Virus record (IMG/VR): IMGVR_UViG_3300012006_000012
Coordinates: 1-40,666 of that record
Strand: one strand, 5' to 3'
DNA length: 40,666 nt
Origin: a virus
Notes under the pieces: generated by a model
Told to the model about the DNA's origin: nothing
Seen by the model: the letters and a program-made list of their open reading frames with translations, nothing else
Database searches by the model: none
In this document: one piece after another, positions 123-40,666 of the stretch
How positions within the stretch are numbered: position 1 is the stretch's first letter
Layout: every line of letters starts with the position of its first letter
Program-made: the position numbers and the translations under genes

Positions 123-752
123 TTAGGCGGTCTTTACCATTGAACGCTTAGCGATTGGGACTAGGACTTCCAATAGGGCGGTTAGGGTCTGAAGGTCTGA
201 TGTCTTCATTTCCTTGAGATTCTTCAGAGTGCGGACTTCCAATAGGGCTTGAGACACGATAGATTCGATAGACTTCGCGCTTACCTTCTCGGACTTCGCA
301 TTAGTGCGGGACTTAGATTGAGTCGGTGCGACCTTCTCTAATTCTTCGATAGTTGATGCGCCTTCGATAGCGCCTTGAGCGCCTTCCGCGCCATGCTCGC
401 GACCGACACGCTCGGACAATTTTAGAAGGCTCGCGACCGATTGAGATTCCGCATCTGAAACCTTGCCGACAATTTCAGAGAAGATTGGAAACCATTGGAC
501 ATGTGACTTTCGGATTGTAGGGGCATTTCCGATTTTAGAGGCTTCCGCGATTGAGGCTTGGACTGTGCGGATTGAGGTCTTTCCATTTTTTAGCATTTCG
601 GCTATTTCTAGGACGAATTGGATTTCCCCGTCATGGTTGATGAGGGTTGAGTAACTTTCGACAATTTCCGCCATTGGGACGATTTCTGTCTTCTCGACCT
701 TGATTTTTGCTGGTGTTGAATTGTTAGTGCTGGCTACTGTTTTTTGAGTCAT
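123..752 (-). CDS. Hypothetical protein, 209 aa
   Basis: I do not recognise this protein. It is Lys/Ser/Glu-rich with a central HVQWFPIF patch (about residues 83-90), a charged low-complexity stretch (about 140-165) and a leucine-rich helical C-terminus. The ATG at 752 is preceded by GGAAATAAGAAA, a weak ribosome site. It is the only gene left of the origin-like block and is read away from it, with a strong terminator behind and a 15-bp palindromic operator 124 bp upstream. That placement would suit an early regulatory or replication-accessory role, but nothing in the sequence proves it. Confidence 0.7.
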   Translation of the reverse strand: MTQKTVASTNNSTPAKIKVEKTEIVPMAEIVESYSTLINHDGEIQFVLEIAEMLKNGKTSIRTVQASIAEASKIGNAPTIRKSHVQWFPIFSEIVGKVSDAESQSVASLLKLSERVGREHGAEGAQGAIEGASTIEELEKVAPTQSKSRTNAKSEKVSAKSIESIVSQALLEVRTLKNLKEMKTSDLQTLTALLEVLVPIAKRSMVKTA

Positions 753-875: not shown

Positions 876-890
876 GTATGATTATCATAC
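876..890. promoter_or_regulatory. 15-bp palindromic operator, copy 1
   Basis: GTATGATTATCATAC, a perfect 7-1-7 inverted repeat, between the leftward 209-aa gene and the DnaA-box cluster. It is the only copy on this side of the genome. Confidence 0.7.
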
Positions 891-11059: not shown

Positions 11060-11841
11060 TGGCAGAAACACCTAAACCTAGTGCTACACCAGTAGTAGGT
11101 CGTAAGCCTGTTGTGCCAAAGTTTAATCCACTTCCAAGCATAACACCTACACCTACACCAAGTCAATCTGCTGCTCCTTCTATTAGTGCAATTGATAAGA
11201 TTAACCAGAAACTTAAGTTGCTTCCTGGATTCCCAGCAGTTGACCCTAATGCATTTGCTGGATTAAATACTAATGATAATTATACAAATGAAGAAGCAAC
11301 CGCTCTTGGGGTTATTCTAAAGAAGTTGGGTTACCCAGTAAAAAAGACTAAAGAATCTATACTTACTGTAATTGCTACTAACCCAGAACTGCTTGCTCTA
11401 CAGGGAAAGTCAAAGACATACTCAGACTTCCTGCTTGGTCTTAAAAGCGCATACCTTCCTGGTCTTGACACACCAGCAACCCCGAAGGCTCCTGATACAA
11501 CTCGTCAAGTTTATCAGTATAAGCCAGAAGAAATCAATGCACTTATTGATGATGTATATGTAACCACTCTTGGACGTCCTGCAACAGAAGAAGAAAAGCA
11601 AGCAAAGTTTGCCGTTCTTGACCAACAAATCAAACAGGGTACAACATCTGTTAGCAAAGTTGTAAAGAATAAAAAGACTGGTAAAATGGAAACATTAGTT
11701 ACCCAGACTCCTGCATTCTCAACAACTGCTGCTAAAACAACTATTGAAGCAGAACTTAAAAAAGCAAATCCAGATGATTTTGACCGCAAGAAGCGTATTG
11801 ACTTTGCTGGTTGGCTATCACAGAATGTGGCGGGTGCATAA
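11059..11841 (+). CDS. Putative virion protein, 260 aa
   Basis: No family recognised with certainty. The N-terminus (about 1-45) is Pro/Ser/Thr-rich and disordered. A folded part includes YTNEEATALGVILKKLGYPV and, around residues 160-190, DDVYVTTLGRPATEEE, which resembles the LGRxA(T/D)xxE motif found in some surface and virion proteins. It overlaps both neighbours as TAATG, so it belongs to the same translational chain as the giant protein. Confidence 0.7.
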   Translation: MAETPKPSATPVVGRKPVVPKFNPLPSITPTPTPSQSAAPSISAIDKINQKLKLLPGFPAVDPNAFAGLNTNDNYTNEEATALGVILKKLGYPVKKTKESILTVIATNPELLALQGKSKTYSDFLLGLKSAYLPGLDTPATPKAPDTTRQVYQYKPEEINALIDDVYVTTLGRPATEEEKQAKFAVLDQQIKQGTTSVSKVVKNKKTGKMETLVTQTPAFSTTAAKTTIEAELKKANPDDFDRKKRIDFAGWLSQNVAGA

Positions 11842-34413: not shown

Positions 34414-34866
34414 CTATGATGTCGGGTAATCCCTCTCCGCTGGGTCTACCCACGTTTCTGCATAGTGCTCGTCCATAGATTGATTTTCTGCTACTCGTGC
34501 TTGTCGTAAATGTTCTAGTATCTGCCCTATAGTTATCAGATAACCTCTTGATGGGTTAGGTGGAATGTTACACGTTATCGGTCTTCCAACTTCCCATACC
34601 GCTTCTTTTAGTCTCCACAATGGAACTATAACTGTGGAATCTTCTAGCATGAATGCCCAATGCGTAGCCTTACTCACTCGTATGCCTGACGGCTTCCAAA
34701 CACTATCGCTTACATAATAGCATTCTGTTTCAATATAGACGTTTCCAGTTTCTATCCAACGCCTGTCTGTCTTGACTTCGACGGTGTCTAAGGAAAGCAA
34801 GTCTGCGACCCTGCTCTCACCTAGTTCACCTGCTCTAAGGTCTAAGTCCCAGTTGGAATCTTTCAA
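34414..34866 (-). CDS. PD-(D/E)XK-like hypothetical protein, 150 aa
   Basis: GELGESRVADLL then VEVKTDRRWIETGNVYIETECY (about 29-50) gives the Glu-x-Lys of restriction-like nucleases, followed by KPSGIRVSKATHWAFML (about 58-74), a core strand/helix. Start is TTG at 34866, which overlaps the upstream stop (TTGA); no better ATG. It is the last leftward gene and runs tail-to-tail into the sigma-like gene with a 14-base gap and no terminator. Confidence 0.68.
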   Translation of the reverse strand: MKDSNWDLDLRAGELGESRVADLLSLDTVEVKTDRRWIETGNVYIETECYYVSDSVWKPSGIRVSKATHWAFMLEDSTVIVPLWRLKEAVWEVGRPITCNIPPNPSRGYLITIGQILEHLRQARVAENQSMDEHYAETWVDPAERDYPTS

Positions 34867-35018
34867 TCTACCTCTGCCATTTCTTTTTCATACATCGCTA
34901 GACTAAGTTCATCTAACTGTTCCTTGATTTGGTCAATGAGACCCTCACGATAGAGTAGTTCTGCTTCTGTATAAACTACACCATCTTCATCTTCTTTGCT
35001 ATACTCATACTGTGTCAT
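34863..35018 (-). CDS. Small acidic helical protein, 51 aa
   Basis: Starts MTQYEYSKEDEDG and continues with an amphipathic helix (EAELLYREGLIDQIKEQLDEL). ATG overlaps the stop of the gene before it in transcription order (ATGA at 35015-35018) and its own stop overlaps the next TTG. Function unknown. Confidence 0.7.
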   Translation of the reverse strand: MTQYEYSKEDEDGVVYTEAELLYREGLIDQIKEQLDELSLAMYEKEMAEVD

Positions 35019-35134
35019 AGGTCATCCCAACATATCTCGCATATCGACCAATCAGCCAATCTGATTAGAGTTTCACTGCCAACCATAGTCTCACATCTTG
35101 TGCATTGACTTAGGTCGTCTTCGTCATAGCCCAT
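35015..35134 (-). CDS. Zinc-finger mini-protein, 39 aa
   Basis: From ATG 35134 (ribosome site AGGAGGATAGAT) it has CTRCETMVGS...CEICWDDL, two CxxC pairs in a compact ribbon. A longer in-frame start at 35218 overlaps the FmdB-like gene and lacks a ribosome site. One of several short Cys-rich proteins in this operon. Confidence 0.75.
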   Translation of the reverse strand: MGYDEDDLSQCTRCETMVGSETLIRLADWSICEICWDDL

Positions 35135-35136
35135 AT

Positions 35137-35313
35137 CTATCCTCCTGTCGAATAGAAGCCAGTTCCGTTGAACTTTACTGGTGCTGCATAATATACACGC
35201 TTCATATCCTGATTGCAAACGTTACATTCAGGGATTACTTCTTCATCAGACATACGACGCTCTACGGATACTTCTATGTTGTCCGTATCACACTTGTATT
35301 CGTACGTAGCCAT
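35137..35313 (-). CDS. FmdB-like zinc-ribbon protein, 58 aa
   Basis: MATYEYKCD at the start and CNVCNQDMKRVYYAAPVKFNGTGFYSTGG at the end match the FmdB regulatory zinc-ribbon family (YEYxC, CxxC, GSGFY). The first CxxC is reduced to a single Cys, so metal binding may be weakened. GGAGG sits seven bases before ATG 35313; the CGACCGACACAAAC motif lies just upstream. An upstream in-frame start at 35406 would add unrelated residues. Confidence 0.75.
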   Translation of the reverse strand: MATYEYKCDTDNIEVSVERRMSDEEVIPECNVCNQDMKRVYYAAPVKFNGTGFYSTGG

Positions 35314-35317
35314 GCGC

Positions 35318-35569
35318 TTACCTCCGCATAGTTTGTGTCGGTCGGAGTGTATGATTATCATACAGCCGTTGACGCTGTTGCGCCATAGCCTCCTGAACGC
35401 CGACATAGTTATCTAGAGATTGGCAAATCTTCTTGGCCATTTCTCTACCTTCTAATCTATTATATCCAAACATGGCTAGTTTGTCTATTACTTTTTGCAC
35501 ACGAGGCTCTTGTTGGTAAGCGCCTTCTTTGAAGATTTGCAACTTACCCTGTCTGACTCTAGTTATCAT
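35318..35569 (-). CDS. Hypothetical protein, 83 aa
   Basis: Basic helical protein with VQKVIDKLAMFGYNRLEGREMAKKIC (about 24-49). ATG 35569 overlaps the preceding stop as TGATG. Its 3' coding end contains palindrome copy 2 (read as YDNHT). Confidence 0.7.
   Translation of the reverse strand: MITRVRQGKLQIFKEGAYQQEPRVQKVIDKLAMFGYNRLEGREMAKKICQSLDNYVGVQEAMAQQRQRLYDNHTLRPTQTMRR
35349..35363. promoter_or_regulatory. 15-bp palindromic operator, copy 2
   Basis: GTATGATTATCATAC inside the 83-aa gene, eight bases from an adjacent GTTTGTGTCGG motif at 35331-35341. Confidence 0.7.
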
Positions 35570-35949
35570 CAGTACCAACCCTTCTTGTTATGGAACTTTA
35601 GCGCTTGGCAAGGTGAGCCATAGCGGTATAGAATATAGGCAAAGCCACGCTCAATTTGACGTGTTGCTGGCACGTTCGGGTTCATACCCAGTAGTTGCGG
35701 TATACCACCTGCGTTTTTACCCATTACCTTATGATTATTATAGGCTTCGGGTCTCCAATGAGACTCTTTAGTCCATAACTTATCTAGACAATCGAACTGC
35801 TTATCATTCCATGCAAGCATTACATCTTTTGCATAGGCTTTGCTATCTTCTGCTGTCCACTTGTGTGCTGGTGTTACTTTCTCATGCCCTGCATGAGTTA
35901 CACCAAACACCATAAATATTACTATCAAAAGCAATAGTAATTTCTTCAT
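35569..35949 (-). CDS. Secreted lytic-transglycosylase-like protein, 126 aa
   Basis: A signal peptide (about 1-20, MKKLLLLLIVIFMVFGVTHA) precedes a compact domain with FDCLDKLWTKESHWRPEAYN (catalytic-type Glu62), GIPQLLGMN, ATRQIERGFAYILYRYGSPCQA and a C-terminal NKKGWY. This is the layout of small SLT/Rpf-like transglycosylases; Cys54 and Cys114 could form a disulfide outside the membrane. AAGGTGG precedes the ATG. A wall-acting exported enzyme in the early operon rather than in the lysis or tail cassette is unusual. Confidence 0.75.
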   Translation of the reverse strand: MKKLLLLLIVIFMVFGVTHAGHEKVTPAHKWTAEDSKAYAKDVMLAWNDKQFDCLDKLWTKESHWRPEAYNNHKVMGKNAGGIPQLLGMNPNVPATRQIERGFAYILYRYGSPCQALKFHNKKGWY

Positions 35950-35952
35950 AGT

Positions 35953-36291
35953 TTACCACCTTACTAGAGGTATCATCTTGTCGGCAAAGTCTAGAGCGCG
36001 TCCCATATCTGACTGCACTCCATAGTTTTCTCGTGACCTACCTAGCCTAGCGATACGTTCGCCAGCGAGTAATCCACCCCATATACCATGCGGTAGATTT
36101 TCTGTCTTCATTCCCTCTTCTAGACATCGCGCCTTAGACGGACACGTATTGCACTGCTCAATAGCGTAGTTGATACTGCTTACCAACTCCGCACGTCTAG
36201 CGTTAGAAGGTCGACCATTATCGTTCTCAGGAAACCAGTAATCTGCATTAGGGTCGTTAGTGCAGTTACCTACTAGCGGTTCAGTCTTCAT
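35953..36291 (-). CDS. whiB-like: WhiB-family transcription regulator
   Basis: 112 aa from ATG 36291. Four iron-sulfur cysteines (C10, C47, C50, C56 in CNTCPSKARC) and the GIWGG turn (69-73) followed by LLAGERIARLGR define WhiB. These proteins are restricted to Actinobacteria and their phages and act with the primary sigma factor, so it may redirect host or phage promoters. It overlaps the 48-aa gene by 11 bases. An upstream in-frame start at 36342 lies inside that gene and is rejected. Confidence 0.85.
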   Translation of the reverse strand: MKTEPLVGNCTNDPNADYWFPENDNGRPSNARRAELVSSINYAIEQCNTCPSKARCLEEGMKTENLPHGIWGGLLAGERIARLGRSRENYGVQSDMGRALDFADKMIPLVRW

Positions 36292-36427
36292 GCATCTCGT
36301 CCCACATTCTATCAGGGTCGTCGTCTTCGACGCACTCTGCATCTATTTCATGGTCGTGTCCACATTCGTCACAGTCGTCCATTCCTAATGCAAACGGGTC
36401 TCCTTGAAGCCACATTGGTTCACTCAT
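36281..36427 (-). CDS. Acidic zinc-type mini-protein, 48 aa
   Basis: From ATG 36427, with GGGGAAGATA ahead. DDCDECGHDHEIDAECVEDDDPDR (about 17-40) holds CxxC and His residues in an acidic context. Overlaps the preceding stop (ATGAGTGA) and the WhiB start. Function unknown. Confidence 0.7.
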   Translation of the reverse strand: MSEPMWLQGDPFALGMDDCDECGHDHEIDAECVEDDDPDRMWDEMHED

Positions 36428-36587
36428 TATCTTCCCCTTTTGGTATATGTAATGAACAATATAGTTTTCCATGATGTGCGTAGAAAAATGACTTGTCGTT
36501 ATCTACATATCCACATTCAATGCACTCGTTATCAGCGATATACCGAATTGAATTATTTTCAAGTTTAACTGTGTAGTTAACTATCAT
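36420..36587 (-). CDS. Zinc-type mini-protein, 55 aa
   Basis: From ATG 36587, eight bases after GGAGG. CIECGYVDNDKSFFYAHHGKLYCSLHI (about 21-47) forms a CxxC...CxxH ribbon. An alternative ATG at 36593 is too close to the ribosome site. Function unknown. Confidence 0.7.
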   Translation of the reverse strand: MIVNYTVKLENNSIRYIADNECIECGYVDNDKSFFYAHHGKLYCSLHIPKGEDNE

Positions 36588-36780
36588 CTTCATCACCTCC
36601 GACAGCCTCATCAGAATCATCTTCAATCATCTCTACCCATATATCTTCTATCTCACTATGATATAGATTATTCTGCCACTCAATGGCAGCCTTCTTCTCT
36701 GCTTCATAGTCATCTTGCGCTTCCAACTTGAATCGAAACGTAACAGTAACAGTTGCATCATATTCTACATTGTCATCCAT
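36577..36780 (-). CDS. Hypothetical protein, 67 aa
   Basis: Beta-strand N-terminus (DATVTVTFRFKLEAQDD), helical centre and a very acidic tail (EDDSDEAVGGDEDDS). GGAGGATAAATATA precedes the ATG. Overlaps both neighbours. Unknown function; acidic small proteins in early regions can be DNA mimics or inhibitors, which is speculation here. Confidence 0.7.
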   Translation of the reverse strand: MDDNVEYDATVTVTFRFKLEAQDDYEAEKKAAIEWQNNLYHSEIEDIWVEMIEDDSDEAVGGDEDDS

Positions 36781-37027
36781 TATATTTATCCTCCAGTATC
36801 GAATCTAGAACGTACTCGAACTCAGGTCTATTAGCCATTTCAGGTTTCTTTCCGTCCCAAAATATTTCATAGCCGTCATCTTCATTCCAATGCAGCCGTC
36901 CACCGAATAGCATACGAGCGCCGTTGACCAACTCAAAGTCTTTGACCCAGCCTGTCTCGCGTCGCATACGTTGCTTGATATTGAATGCTTTGTTCATCTC
37001 ACTAACTGTTACTTCTGCATCACTCAT
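36773..37027 (-). CDS. Hypothetical protein, 84 aa
   Basis: Mixed alpha/beta with KQRMRRETGWVKDFELVNGARMLFGGRLHW (about 18-47) and EIFWDGKKPE. GAGGAGTTATC precedes the ATG, which overlaps the 42-aa gene's stop (ATGA). No family recognised. Confidence 0.7.
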   Translation of the reverse strand: MSDAEVTVSEMNKAFNIKQRMRRETGWVKDFELVNGARMLFGGRLHWNEDDGYEIFWDGKKPEMANRPEFEYVLDSILEDKYNG

Positions 37028-37152
37028 GATAACTCCTCTAGTAGTAATCGTGCATCTGCTAGTTTCTTATCTGTATGATAATCATACGAGTTGCTTGATG
37101 TGAGTAGGTGGATATAATCCAGCACTACATCACGCACTTTTTCTTTATCCAC
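37024..37152 (-). CDS. Small helical protein, 42 aa
   Basis: GTG start at 37152 with AGGGGGTAAGT directly ahead. Two helices (KEKVRDVVLDYIHLL and KKLADARLLLEEL) are joined by SSNSYDYHT, encoded by palindrome copy 3. Stop overlaps the next ATG. Its start codon context TGTGGATAA also happens to equal a DnaA box (37145-37153). Confidence 0.65.
   Translation of the reverse strand: MDKEKVRDVVLDYIHLLTSSNSYDYHTDKKLADARLLLEELS
37073..37087. promoter_or_regulatory. 15-bp palindromic operator, copy 3
   Basis: GTATGATAATCATAC inside the 42-aa gene, read as YDYHT. Confidence 0.7.
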
Positions 37153-37154
37153 AC

Positions 37155-37364
37155 TTACCCCCTATTGTATGCTGGATAGTATACAGGAACTACCTCAGCG
37201 TTGTCAAGTTGCTTCGCCCAATCTAGGGCTTTATCTAACGTTGGAAAGATACCATAATGTACCAATCCCTCATCAGTTTTTGTTTCTGTTATGTATCCCT
37301 CTACACCCATGCCCCAAATGGTAGCACGAATCTTTATATCTTTAGAAGTCGAAGTGCTTATCAT
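37155..37364 (-). CDS. Hypothetical protein, 69 aa
   Basis: From ATG 37364 with AAGGAGC ahead. Beta-rich start (KDIKIRATIWGMGVEGYITE), then DEGLVHYGIFPTLDKALDWAKQL. The start lies within the last codons of the amidotransferase gene. A longer in-frame start at 37508 gives a false membrane helix that is the amidotransferase's Cys-rich tail read in another frame. Confidence 0.68.
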   Translation of the reverse strand: MISTSTSKDIKIRATIWGMGVEGYITETKTDEGLVHYGIFPTLDKALDWAKQLDNAEVVPVYYPAYNRG

Positions 37365-38184
37365 AGTACCATGCTCCTTGTGGTTTGTGTCGGTCGCGTT
37401 GCCACTTACTATCGGCTGGTGTGTAACATAAGCAAGAATCGCCATACATGCCACTACAATCAAAGCAAGCAAAGCACATCTCGCAGTAGTAGGGGTTAGC
37501 ATCTTCAAATGCTATCGACCTACATGACGGACATTCGTAGTCTTCCAGTAGTTCCGCATCTGTATGATTATCATACGCAATCTCACCAACACTACTGGGC
37601 TTGAGATAACTAGACCACGCGGATGCCTTGTATGTATCATTAGACCACCACATGCCCTCATTATCCCAATGACCACTAGACTCGTTGATGATGTAGCATT
37701 GGTCATTAGCCAATGGGTCAAGCGTAAAAATAACAACCTTGCTACCACTAGCCCACTTGCTTACTATCTTCCATACATTATCATCATCAAGAGCCTTGAC
37801 TCCACCTATTGCAGGAAGGGTATCTTCTGCAAAGACACGCGTATCACTACGCTTATCTGTTGCATGGATTTCTATGTCGAGGATACCATTGTGCGCTAGA
37901 TAGGTATCATCTCTACCGCCAACCTTGAAGGGGTGGCAGTTATCTTGATTCTTTACGCCATGCGTAGCATATCTAGCATGATACATAGCATAACTATTAG
38001 GGTATTCTTTACGAACTTCTAAGAACTCTTTGATAACTTTCTTAGCAGACATACCCTTGCCTGTGATAATCTTATCACCAGCGATTACTGCATAGCCAAA
38101 GCCATGCGGGTTATTACATGAAGCACACTCTAAATCTTTTTTACGAGGCGTAGAGTTGGGTGAGCATACGACTAATAAGCACAT
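37342..38184 (-). CDS. Class II glutamine amidotransferase with zinc-ribbon tail
   Basis: 280 aa. The chain starts Met-Cys2, the N-terminal nucleophile of class II amidotransferases. HARYATHG (69-76), CHPF (83-86) and LAHNGI (96-101) build the Gln pocket. It releases ammonia from glutamine for a partner enzyme. The C-terminal part (about 215-260) is a multi-CxxC ribbon (CPSCR, CEMCFACFDC, CLCY) not needed for that chemistry. GATAGGATAGAT precedes the ATG, two bases after the amidoligase stop, so the two are co-translated and likely one complex. Palindrome copy 4 lies inside. Confidence 0.83.
   Translation of the reverse strand: MCLLVVCSPNSTPRKKDLECASCNNPHGFGYAVIAGDKIITGKGMSAKKVIKEFLEVRKEYPNSYAMYHARYATHGVKNQDNCHPFKVGGRDDTYLAHNGILDIEIHATDKRSDTRVFAEDTLPAIGGVKALDDDNVWKIVSKWASGSKVVIFTLDPLANDQCYIINESSGHWDNEGMWWSNDTYKASAWSSYLKPSSVGEIAYDNHTDAELLEDYECPSCRSIAFEDANPYYCEMCFACFDCSGMYGDSCLCYTPADSKWQRDRHKPQGAWYYDKHFDF
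37562..37576. promoter_or_regulatory. 15-bp palindromic operator, copy 4
   Basis: GTATGATTATCATAC inside the amidotransferase gene, read as YDNHT. Confidence 0.7.
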
Positions 38185-38186
38185 AT

Positions 38187-39398
38187 CTATCCTATCGTTT
38201 GTAGTTGGTTAGCAACTTTTGCTAATCGGATGTTTAGTTCTGCATACAGTCCAGCATTGTCCTGTATGTATTGCGTGAAGTTATCAGAAGACAACGCACC
38301 TTGACGAATATCTCTGACCGACAAGCCTCTAGTATACTCAACGCTGGCGTGCGCTAAGTCAATGAAAGCCTTGACTGTCTCACTATTGACGCTACTTCTA
38401 AAGATACGCATCTCTAAGGTAGCATGGTTCTGTGTATTGACCGCAGAGTATCGGTCGCTGTTGCGAGCGTTCTCTAACTTGTTCTTGAGGTTACGGCGTT
38501 GAGCCCATACTCTATCGCCGTCATCATCTATGCCTTTCACATAGTCGGTATGAGCATCATCAAACTTAGCCCAACGACTAGATGAACGACCTGCTATTGC
38601 TTCGTATAGTGTCTGATTATCATACACTAATCGTAAGAAGCGGTGCATGTGCGAACCACCATTGAATCCTGCACGTGAAATGTGAATGTGCAGACCTGCG
38701 GTTGATGCACTCCACGCCTTCACCTTAATACTCTCCCTGCTTCGTAACGCTTCGAGAGTATTCCATAACTCATTGGCTTCGTTCTTGTAAAAATCATGGG
38801 TCATGGGATGCGTGACTATTTCAAAGCCACAGTTGAGAGAGCCATCACTCTTGAGATAGGCTAACTCGTATTCTTCTAGTCTGCTCGCATACTCTGCGGA
38901 CTCAGACCTATTGCGTGATGCTTCTACTTCGATTTCTATCCCGAAGAATAAGCGTTCTTCTTTGTCTGTGCTGTGGAACACAGGGTCAGGGCGGTAAGAG
39001 TAATCATGGATTACCTGCGCATCATCTCCGTCATGGTCGGTGCAACCATGTGCGTAATACGCATCACAGTCCTCACACCAACTCGTATTACCTACGCAGT
39101 TCTCGCAGTAAGAATTGTTGGTGTCTTCTGTATAGTAACTATCGCCTGTGTGATACTCATTACAATCATCACAGTAATTGGCGTGGCTTTCCATACAACT
39201 TTCGCACCACATCTCGCTTTGGTCTACGTAATACCACGAGTCATTTTCCCAACCAGTATCATCACAGCGCTCGCATATTCGCTTGCACTCTGAGCAACTT
39301 ACATCACCCGAATAGGTAATGCTATACGCATCATCTTCGCTAACCTCTGCGGTGCAACCGCTACAAGTTAGGTTAGGTGATACTTCGTCTGTATCCAT
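38187..39398 (-). CDS. Amidoligase (COOH-NH2 ligase) with cysteine-rich N-terminus
   Basis: 403 aa. Residues 12-120 carry seven or more CxxC pairs (CSGC, CSEC, CERC, CESC, CDDC, CENC, CEDC). The amidoligase core follows: FFGIEIEVEA (151-160), LKSDGSLNCGFEIVTHPMT (182-200), LHIHIS (236-241) and LEMRIFR (328-334), the Glu/His/Arg set of the glutamine-synthetase-like amidoligase superfamily. These enzymes form amide bonds using ATP. With the glutaminase next door it would amidate a carboxyl group or tag a protein. GAAAGGATAGATT precedes the ATG. Confidence 0.82.
   Translation of the reverse strand: MDTDEVSPNLTCSGCTAEVSEDDAYSITYSGDVSCSECKRICERCDDTGWENDSWYYVDQSEMWCESCMESHANYCDDCNEYHTGDSYYTEDTNNSYCENCVGNTSWCEDCDAYYAHGCTDHDGDDAQVIHDYSYRPDPVFHSTDKEERLFFGIEIEVEASRNRSESAEYASRLEEYELAYLKSDGSLNCGFEIVTHPMTHDFYKNEANELWNTLEALRSRESIKVKAWSASTAGLHIHISRAGFNGGSHMHRFLRLVYDNQTLYEAIAGRSSSRWAKFDDAHTDYVKGIDDDGDRVWAQRRNLKNKLENARNSDRYSAVNTQNHATLEMRIFRSSVNSETVKAFIDLAHASVEYTRGLSVRDIRQGALSSDNFTQYIQDNAGLYAELNIRLAKVANQLQTIG
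38611..38625. promoter_or_regulatory. Palindromic operator, copy 5 (one mismatch)
   Basis: GTCTGATTATCATAC inside the amidoligase gene; one base differs from the family, and the leftward reading is YDNQT. Confidence 0.5.
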
Positions 39399-39419
39399 AA
39401 TCTATCCTTTCGATACTCC

Positions 39420-39434
39420 GTATGATTATCATAC
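39420..39434. promoter_or_regulatory. 15-bp palindromic operator, copy 6
   Basis: GTATGATTATCATAC in the 69-bp gap between the 61-aa gene and the amidoligase start, 22 bases before the amidoligase ATG. This is the clearest intergenic copy: a bound protein would lie over the amidoligase leader. TATAAC lies 22-28 bases upstream on the minus strand without a clear -35. Confidence 0.7.
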
Positions 39435-39467
39435 GAGAGGCGTTGCTATTTAGTTATAGGTAGAACC

Positions 39468-39653
39468 TTACACTAACGCCTGACGTAAGTCAAGTATCGC
39501 ATCAGCAATTTTTGAGCGCAAAGTTTCCACTTCAATCACAAGAACTTTGAAATCGTTGCGCTTGTGGGTGTCCTGTTGGACTCGCAGAGCCATGCGTATC
39601 ACTTCCACTTCACGCGGAGTGAGGTCGAGCAGTAGGTTTGTGTCGGCGCTCAC
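39468..39653 (-). CDS. Small helical protein, 61 aa
   Basis: GTG start overlapping the upstream stop (GTGA), with AAGGTAAGCAA ahead. LTPREVEVIRMALRVQQDTH resembles the first helix of LuxR-type helix-turn-helix domains, but the rest is a simple coiled coil (EVETLRSKIADAILDLRQAL). DNA binding is not supported. Confidence 0.65.
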   Translation of the reverse strand: MSADTNLLLDLTPREVEVIRMALRVQQDTHKRNDFKVLVIEVETLRSKIADAILDLRQALV

Positions 39654-39805
39654 TTGCTTACCTTCTTACGGATTAACTTAGCAACGCGAAGCAATACTAC
39701 AACGCCTGCTAAGAATAGCCATGTGCGGTGAGGTAGGAATACATCACCAAAGTAAGTGGTGAGGTTGATACTCCACTCACTAACCTCTAGGTTAAACAGT
39801 TCCAT
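39650..39805 (-). CDS. Small membrane protein, 51 aa
   Basis: Residues about 28-41 (TWLFLAGVVVLLRV) form a membrane helix after a polar N-terminal half, with a basic tail LIRKKVSK that suggests the C-terminus faces the cytoplasm. GAAGGGAAATGAA precedes ATG 39805; stop overlaps the next GTG. Confidence 0.68.
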   Translation of the reverse strand: MELFNLEVSEWSINLTTYFGDVFLPHRTWLFLAGVVVLLRVAKLIRKKVSK

Positions 39806-39829
39806 TTCATTTCCCTTCACTAAGTTGCT

Positions 39830-39844
39830 GTATGATTATCATAC
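39830..39844. promoter_or_regulatory. 15-bp palindromic operator, copy 7
   Basis: GTATGATTATCATAC, 25 bases upstream of the 51-aa membrane protein's ATG. TTGCCA (39883-39878) and GATACA with a 16-bp spacer lie upstream on the minus strand and may be a weak promoter. Confidence 0.65.
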
Positions 39845-39948
39845 AACTTTGGGTGTATCGGTATCCGCTATGGTATGGCAAGCGTAGACCTCGTCCGACA
39901 TCATTTCAGGTTTCCCTGCTGATTGAGCGTACATACCGATACACTTGT

Positions 39949-39992
39949 GCCTATCATGAGAATCGAACTCATGACTATGCGCCAGCATAGGC
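39949..39992 (-). other. tRNA-like or nested hairpin element
   Basis: On the minus strand GCCTAT (39992-39987) and ATAGGC (39954-39949) can close an acceptor-like stem. Inside is a perfect 7-bp hairpin TCATGAG-TTCGATT-CTCATGA, a textbook T-arm, and a 6-bp CTATGC-TGGC-GCATAG hairpin that competes with the outer stem. A normal tRNA does not fit: no D-arm and no seven-base anticodon loop. It follows the stop of the 56-aa gene and could be a tRNA remnant, a processing signal or a chance match. Confidence 0.25.
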
Positions 39993-40003
39993 TACCAGAC
40001 GGA

Positions 40004-40174
40004 TTACTCAGCCCACTCCGAGTCTTCTTCGTCTTCGGTTTCAGATAAGATTTCATCGAGGGAGATGTCCACGCCATACTCTTCTTCAATGGCTAGGATT
40101 TCATCCATTTGTTCATCAGTTAGGAAGTCATGGGCTAACTCCATAGCCTCTAGGTCTAAGTCGCTATCGTACAT
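40004..40174 (-). CDS. Acidic helical protein, 56 aa
   Basis: MYDSDLDLEAMELAHDFLTD then a strongly acidic helix (EILAIEEEYGVDISLDEILSETEDEEDSEWAE). ATG 40174 lies one base after the previous stop (TAAAATG), so re-initiation is likely; a TTG start at 40192 would overlap. Net charge is very negative, consistent with a DNA-mimic or inhibitor, which is only a guess. Confidence 0.68.
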   Translation of the reverse strand: MYDSDLDLEAMELAHDFLTDEQMDEILAIEEEYGVDISLDEILSETEDEEDSEWAE

Positions 40175-40175
40175 T

Positions 40176-40316
40176 TTAGAATACCATTCCAATCAGGCGT
40201 AGGTGTTCGGTATCAACCGAACGCTGTGAGTCGAGAACCTTGTTGCTCTCAATCTCTTGGTGGATAGCATCATGCGCTTCCGCGATAACCGCTTCCATTT
40301 CGTCTAAGTTCATCAT
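40176..40316 (-). CDS. Small helical protein, 46 aa
   Basis: Starts MMNLDEMEAVIAEAHDAIHQEIESN, followed by a polar tail. GAAAGGATAGC gives the ribosome site, and its ATG overlaps the stop of the 21-aa leader ORF (ATGA). A GTTCGGT-ATCA-ACCGAAC inverted repeat (40205-40222) lies within it. Confidence 0.65.
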   Translation of the reverse strand: MMNLDEMEAVIAEAHDAIHQEIESNKVLDSQRSVDTEHLRLIGMVF

Positions 40317-40378
40317 GCTATCCTTTCGTTATCCTGTATGATTATCATACAAGGCTTACTGCGTAGTTCAACCTTCAT
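40313..40378 (-). CDS. Leaderless leader peptide, 21 aa
   Basis: Sequence MKVELRSKPCMIIIQDNERIA. The ATG is seven bases after the -10 hexamer, so the message would begin at the start codon. The stop overlaps the ATG of the 46-aa gene. The palindrome at 40336-40350 lies in it, in the frame read MIII. Confidence 0.5.
   Translation of the reverse strand: MKVELRSKPCMIIIQDNERIA
40336..40350. promoter_or_regulatory. 15-bp palindromic operator, copy 8
   Basis: GTATGATTATCATAC, 28 bases downstream of the leaderless ATG at 40378. Confidence 0.7.
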
Positions 40379-40384
40379 ACTCTA

Positions 40385-40413
40385 AGAGTAATCTAATCTC
40401 ACCTAGAAGTCAA
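40385..40413 (-). promoter_or_regulatory. Leftward early promoter 1 (leaderless)
   Basis: TTGACT (40413-40408), 17-bp spacer, TACTCT (40390-40385), then six bases to ATG 40378. Every element is exactly 100 bp from the equivalent element of promoter 2. Confidence 0.65.
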
Positions 40414-40478
40414 GCACCCTCAGAAACTATCTCTGTATGATAATCATACAAGGTGTTTCTGCCTATCCCTAACTCCAT
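40410..40478 (-). CDS. Leaderless leader peptide, 22 aa
   Basis: Sequence begins MELGIGRNTLYDYHTE; the ATG again lies seven bases after its -10. Palindrome copy 9 encodes its YDYHT. The stop TGA lies within the -35 of promoter 1. Confidence 0.45.
   Translation of the reverse strand: MELGIGRNTLYDYHTEIVSEGA
40435..40449. promoter_or_regulatory. 15-bp palindromic operator, copy 9
   Basis: GTATGATAATCATAC, 29 bases downstream of the ATG at 40478; 99 bp from copy 8. Confidence 0.7.
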
Positions 40479-40484
40479 AAGACT

Positions 40485-40513
40485 AATCTATCCTAATCCC
40501 TGCCATAAGGCAA
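40485..40513 (-). promoter_or_regulatory. Leftward early promoter 2 (leaderless)
   Basis: TTGCCT (40513-40508), 17-bp spacer, TAGATT (40490-40485), then six bases to ATG 40478. A third, weaker -10-like TATGAT occurs a further 100 bp upstream (40590-40585) without a good -35. Confidence 0.55.
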
Positions 40514-40535
40514 GCATCACCAGCATTTATTTTCC

Positions 40536-40550
40536 GTATGATTATCATAC
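40536..40550. promoter_or_regulatory. 15-bp palindromic operator, copy 10
   Basis: GTATGATTATCATAC, 101 bp from copy 9 and 22 bases upstream of promoter 2's -35. Confidence 0.7.
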
Positions 40551-40595
40551 GCTGGCTATCTTGTGCGCTGGCTATGGCGTGCGAATCATACACGC

Positions 40596-40666
40596 GGCGC
40601 ATCAAAAGTTTGTGTTGGTTTGTGTCGGCCGCTTACCACGCGGTCGGGCGTGTCGGATTTTGGGCA
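40596..40666. repeat. Right copy of the terminal direct repeat
   Basis: 71-bp counterpart of 1-72 with three differences. It lies just upstream of the leftward promoter cluster and carries GTTTGTGTTG (40608-40617) and GTTTGTGTCGG (40618-40628). If the ends join, the 74-106 terminator and these promoters become neighbours. Confidence 0.8.

Follow-up and report, generated by a model that had tools for sequence, protein, structure and literature searches.

Genes and features of the locus

The DNA analysed here (the window, 40,666 nt) comes from a freshwater phage whose relatives include cultured phages of 'Ca. Planktophila'. Two sequenced phages have a large terminase with 75% identity to that of the window; their isolation host was 'Ca. 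Planktophila' LanE-43, which belongs to the actinobacterial order 'Ca. Nanopelagicales' (PMC10202952). Replication and structural genes occupy the right part of the window, and a leftward gene block on the minus strand (34414..40316) carries an amidoligase gene (38187..39398), a glutamine amidotransferase-like gene (37342..38184) and a WhiB-like gene (35953..36342); a sigma-like gene is also encoded. A further minus-strand gene, here named R (123..752), specifies a protein of 209 aa. Positions 1-71 and 40596-40666 were found by eye to be near-identical, with one indel and two substitutions, which makes it probable that the record is circular or circularly permuted. Three DnaA-box-like words (TTATCCACA) were observed on the minus strand at 990-1024, between R and terL, and this stretch is a likely origin. 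Searches of the window, three relatives and the two cultured phages for a tyrosine integrase, a resolvase or a ParA-type ATPase found none, although a divergent gene could have escaped them.

Palindrome copies and their conservation

A preliminary description of this DNA had reported nine perfect copies of the palindrome GTATGATnATCATAC and one copy with a single mismatch at 38611, and all were recovered at the same coordinates by a scan of the full 40,666-nt window. Its restriction of the family to the leftward region and the origin was likewise upheld, all ten copies being located within the leftward block or adjoining the putative origin; the only further near-matches were words with three mismatches at 11271 and at 35729. 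With up to three mismatches allowed, 22 strand matches were counted against 1.38 expected from dinucleotide shuffles, a number reached in 0 of 100 shuffles. The central base is A or T in no fixed orientation, and a de novo palindrome count revealed no second comparable family in the window genome.

Six of the ten copies are not intragenic. The copy at 876..890 adjoins the putative origin and precedes the start codon of R by about 125 bp; an equivalent was found upstream of R in the relatives in which that region is covered. The copy at 39420..39434 follows a -10 box by 30 nt within the amidoligase leader, and the one at 39830..39844 directly upstream of an ORF (39650..39820, minus strand). Those at 40336..40350 and 40435..40449 are 34 and 35 nt downstream of -10 boxes, respectively, the former 20 nt upstream of the start codon of another minus-strand ORF (40176..40316), and the copy at 40536..40550 marks the start of the leftward region. 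The remaining four are intragenic, and are located within minus-strand ORFs at 35318..35578 (copy at 35349..35363, read in frame as YDNHT) and 37024..37152 (copy at 37073..37087), within the glutamine amidotransferase-like gene (37562..37576) and within the amidoligase gene (38611..38625, the copy with one mismatch, GTCTGATTATCATAC). All four are in the same reading frame, giving YDNHT or a close variant.

The scan of the window and of related phages that the preliminary description had proposed gave, besides the excess over shuffles, the same palindrome at homologous positions in eleven other IMG/VR records. The intragenic copies were compared across 8-9 genomes, and for three of the four, between 20 and 25 out of every 30 columns in the flanks were variable. 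The 15 bp at 35349 were invariant in 8 genomes (20 and 24 of 30 columns variable on the two sides), as were those at 37562 (8 genomes; 20 and 25 of 30), the central base alone varied at 37073 (9 genomes), and the mismatch at 38611 was retained unchanged in relatives. By this comparison of sequences, the palindrome sites are under selection, the intragenic copies included. An additional copy between the amidoligase and glutamine amidotransferase genes was present in the close relatives covering that place, except G006, and is cleanly absent from the window (38185-38205).

Other features were observed in the same region. A word with the shape of an actinobacterial LexA/SOS box (TCGAACACCTGTTCGA, 927-942) adjoins the palindrome at 876, and a box of the same type was present in G001, G003, G009 and L112. 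A second repeat, TTTGTGTYG, occurs at 14, 25, 946, 35332, 37384, 39637, 40609 and 40619, mostly on the plus strand and in the leftward and origin region, and is retained in G010 despite the different palindrome there. A tRNA-like sequence (39950-40025) adjoins the site at 39830; ARAGORN predicted no tRNA in the window, and found tRNA-Thr in G010 and tRNA-Arg in G001 near the equivalent place. An Rfam scan of 39300-40666 gave nothing notable.

Different palindromes at the same places

G010 and G011, with approximately 53% amidoligase identity, did not contain GTATGATnATCATAC; instead, eight or nine copies of GGTCGGCnnGCCGACC were found in front of the same genes, at corresponding positions. The comparison was extended to 80 of about 490 terminase relatives by a de novo palindrome search, from which palindrome labels and half-site distances were assigned by the author, and one dominant palindrome per phage was found wherever the upstream DNA sufficed. 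At least 13 different palindromes were distinguished (17 or 18 bp including flanks), located left of terL at similar distances from it, most of them with TG or CG as the outer end and T(n)A as the centre. A scan of viral contigs for GGTCGGCTnGCCGACC included many lone chance matches among the matches listed. The terminases of L214 and L223 are about 95% identical, and between these phages the word shifts symmetrically in place from TGTATTAATTTAATACA to TGTCTGAATTTCAGACA; the flanks of three sites are 77-85% identical, and the R-bearing stretch about 40-55%. These sequences would be explained most simply by a replacement of R together with a rewriting of the outlying sites, in either order.

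These findings bear on the nature of the binding factor. The preliminary description had put forward a host metal regulator of the Fur family as a candidate, and the 7-1-7 geometry and ATGATnATCAT core do have the shape of a Fur box, as judged from the sequence and from knowledge of the family. However, unrelated words such as GTCGGGnnnnCCCGAC occupy the same places in relatives, and palindromes are absent from phages that lack R. Because the palindromes of relatives differ at the same positions and their type follows a phage gene, namely R (see below), this candidate is not supported, and recognition of the sites by a host regulator is considered highly improbable. The palindromes could also act as RNA hairpins in leftward transcripts, controlling processing or translation, as the several copies in leaders, shortly upstream of start codons, might suggest. 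This is scarcely to be expected, as hairpin formation alone would not call for a single constant word in each phage, the stems of some types (GTATTAAnTTAATAC) would consist of A-U pairs with one exception, several copies are intragenic and the copy upstream of R may fall outside the R transcript.

Gene R tracks the palindrome type

Nearly all these phages carry R as a gene of about 195-235 aa on the minus strand, left of terL, and phages with similar R proteins, forming R groups, have the same or related palindromes. For 41 phages, palindrome distance was correlated with R distance when terL was held constant (partial r 0.68, permutation p 0.0005), compared with 0.19 for terL distance when R was held constant, these permutation tests treating phages as exchangeable although they are related. 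L166 and L169 share terL proteins that are 99% identical, whereas their R proteins are 13% identical and their palindromes unrelated; a GCCGTAT palindrome, on the other hand, is common to two R clades only 27-30% identical. A palindrome family was present in 38/38 phages with R, counted among those with at least 1.8 kb of upstream DNA, and was not found in any of the four phages without R (L193, L194 and the cultured E7 and F5), a split with a chance of about 9e-6 were the phages independent, which they are not. Loci were also fetched out of sample by the R protein alone, about eight of the 13 being new and the rest contigs seen before, and all 13 had the expected palindrome: nine showed the family predicted from the R clade, and four short loci had a single copy upstream of R (three exact, one with a one-base departure).

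Compared with eight other genes, R was the best predictor of the palindrome, followed by WhiB; the glutamine amidotransferase, sigma-like, phrog_13596 and transglycosylase-like genes did not co-vary with it. Another phage protein of the leftward module, such as the WhiB-like protein (35953..36342), might be the binder and R its linked partner, since WhiB proteins are transcription factors and WhiB distance co-varied with palindrome type (0.60 given terL, 18 phages). This is regarded as quite improbable: in the same phages the value for R with WhiB held constant was 0.73, against 0.41 for WhiB with R held constant; identity to the window WhiB is 40% in G001 and 51% in G010, yet it is G001 that shares the palindrome and G010 that does not; and the cultured phages without palindromes retain WhiB. 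The co-variation makes the 209-aa R a strong candidate for the protein that binds the palindromes and represses through them, and the earlier statement that no phage repressor is recognised has been overtaken in this respect.

The R protein

Searches with R gave no significant relative in Pfam, NCBIfam, PHROGs and PDB sequences, and no relative in GTDB genomes and annotated phages. An alignment of 40 R sequences lacks conserved stretches. On sequence comparison, R is without recognisable kinship to known repressors, and its family is unnamed in any library. The AlphaFold2 model of the window R is helical, and for the R of L178 the prediction (mean pLDDT 90.7) shows a helical domain that a linker joins to a C-terminal helical part. 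Palindrome type is followed most closely by alignment columns 60-62, where a predicted helix begins, and 87, 88 and 94, all of them in or beside the helices predicted at 61-72 and 82-97. Foldseek searches of two R models against the PDB and of one against viral models returned nothing below E 0.8, and VIA structure comparison listed no match at Z of at least 8. Weak VIA matches to ParB-type DNA-binding domains were obtained (Z 2.8-4.4 over 85-103 residues), including those of ParB, SopB and KorB (6s6h, 6t1f, 3mkw, 8qa9 and 3mkz), and the KorB-operator structure 1r71 matched at Z 4.4 over 94 residues, which is also weak. A ParB sequence match for R was not found, and hhalign of R with KorB and SopB relatives was not significant (probability 0.8%, E 0.07, similar to a control).

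These resemblances raise the alternative that R binds the palindromes as a DNA-organising or partition and copy-control protein, ParB- or SopB-like, that labels the genome on its origin side, with secondary effects on transcription. The sites flank the putative origin with its DnaA-box-like words, several of the weak structural matches are ParB, SopB or KorB DNA-binding domains, and the outer TG..CA of many palindromes resembles parS. This alternative is nevertheless judged unlikely: no ParA-type ATPase was found, the sites extend over 6 kb of coding DNA, three of them lie at a fixed distance behind promoters, and R is too small for the ParB nucleotide-binding domain, since in the model only about 25 of its 209 residues precede the helical domain and would leave no room for it.

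Promoters and proposed mechanism

Three leftward promoters were predicted on the minus strand from their match to the consensus, and all are conserved, the first two in relatives: TTGACT-17-TAAGGT at 39465..39493 (-35 at 39488-39493, -10 at 39465-39470), TTGACT-17-TACTCT at 40385..40413 and TTGCCT-17-TAGATT at 40485..40513. The palindromes at 39420, 40336 and 40435 are 30-35 nt downstream of the -10 boxes, and at the amidoligase promoter of G010 this arrangement recurs with the palindrome word of that phage.

From the sites, the selection on them and their co-variation with R, we infer, with a probability of roughly two in three, that the ten palindrome copies are bound by R, probably in the form of a symmetric dimer, that bound R stops leftward transcription, and that R would also control its own gene and provide superinfection immunity. 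At the three promoters, a bound site would lie at about +25 to +40, where the polymerase has just left the promoter, and R on these leader sites would hinder promoter escape or early elongation; the intragenic copies may serve as further roadblocks to elongation. Since a copy lies about 125 bp in front of its own gene, R could control itself. Immunity to superinfection would arise because the R of one phage should bind the sites of a superinfecting phage only if both are of one type, and such immunity could be what has made R and palindrome change together so often. A repressor network would not bring its usual benefit here, given that no lysogeny gene was found.

Comparison with known repeat systems

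The repressor sites of L5, a cluster A mycobacteriophage, are 13-bp asymmetric words bound by a monomer and orientated with transcription, and in L5-type phages the stoperator word and the repressor differ together between related phages (PMC9283540, PMC6550527). As in L5, one short word recurs here many times, both in promoters and elsewhere along the genome, with a phage-encoded binder (candidate R), a word that changes with it and actinobacterial hosts. The likeness to L5 stoperators drawn in the preliminary description holds for the number of sites, their occurrence both in leaders and inside genes and their conservation in relatives, but not for their form, the window sites being 15-bp palindromes without orientation, with the centre base in both orientations. 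Searched against Pfam, NCBIfam, PHROGs, PDB sequences and annotated phages, R gave no significant match to any known repressor family, and, in contrast to L5-type temperate phages, no integrase, resolvase or ParA was found in the window, three relatives and two cultured phages. By analogy, the palindrome network would work most like L5-type stoperators, yet it is not filed as a member because its sites are symmetric and unorientated and no lysogeny gene was seen.

The phiC31 repressor sites are conserved inverted repeats of similar length. Streptomyces phage R4 has a repressor-stoperator system with many repressor sites across its genome (PMC10276819). Both R4 and phiC31 are temperate and carry serine integrases, whereas no lysogeny gene was found in the window. 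KorB of plasmid RK2 is a global repressor with multiple 16-bp operators that acts as a CTP-dependent sliding clamp with KorA as its partner (PMC11790492). Repression at multiple operators, as proposed for R, and the weak structural resemblance of the DNA-binding part are common to both, but R has no room for the CTP-clamp domain. The SAS/ESAS repeats of cluster K phages lie upstream of the start codons of many phage genes, the SAS being 13-bp, asymmetric and at translation starts (PMC3203893). Window repeats also occur upstream of start codons, but the word is palindromic and several copies are intragenic.

Significance

This phage group attacks the most abundant freshwater actinobacteria, and a literature search found no description of gene control in it. 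Judged from its sequences, the system, whose sites mark the early genes, looks like a virus-made gene switch in which the specificity of sites and protein has been changed many times. A broader proposal, which is held tentatively as possible rather than probable, is that R founds a new dimeric DNA-binding family that provides immunity to phages without recognisable lysogeny genes, each R silencing the early genes of matching phages, and that competition led to the at least 13 R/palindrome types, with R swapped by recombination and the sites rewritten. The family offers many natural pairs of protein and site in otherwise similar genomes, so that a joint change of specificity in a DNA-binding protein and its whole set of sites is directly testable. 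If the proposed immunity is true, it would mean that immunity types have diversified in phages without recognisable lysogeny genes.
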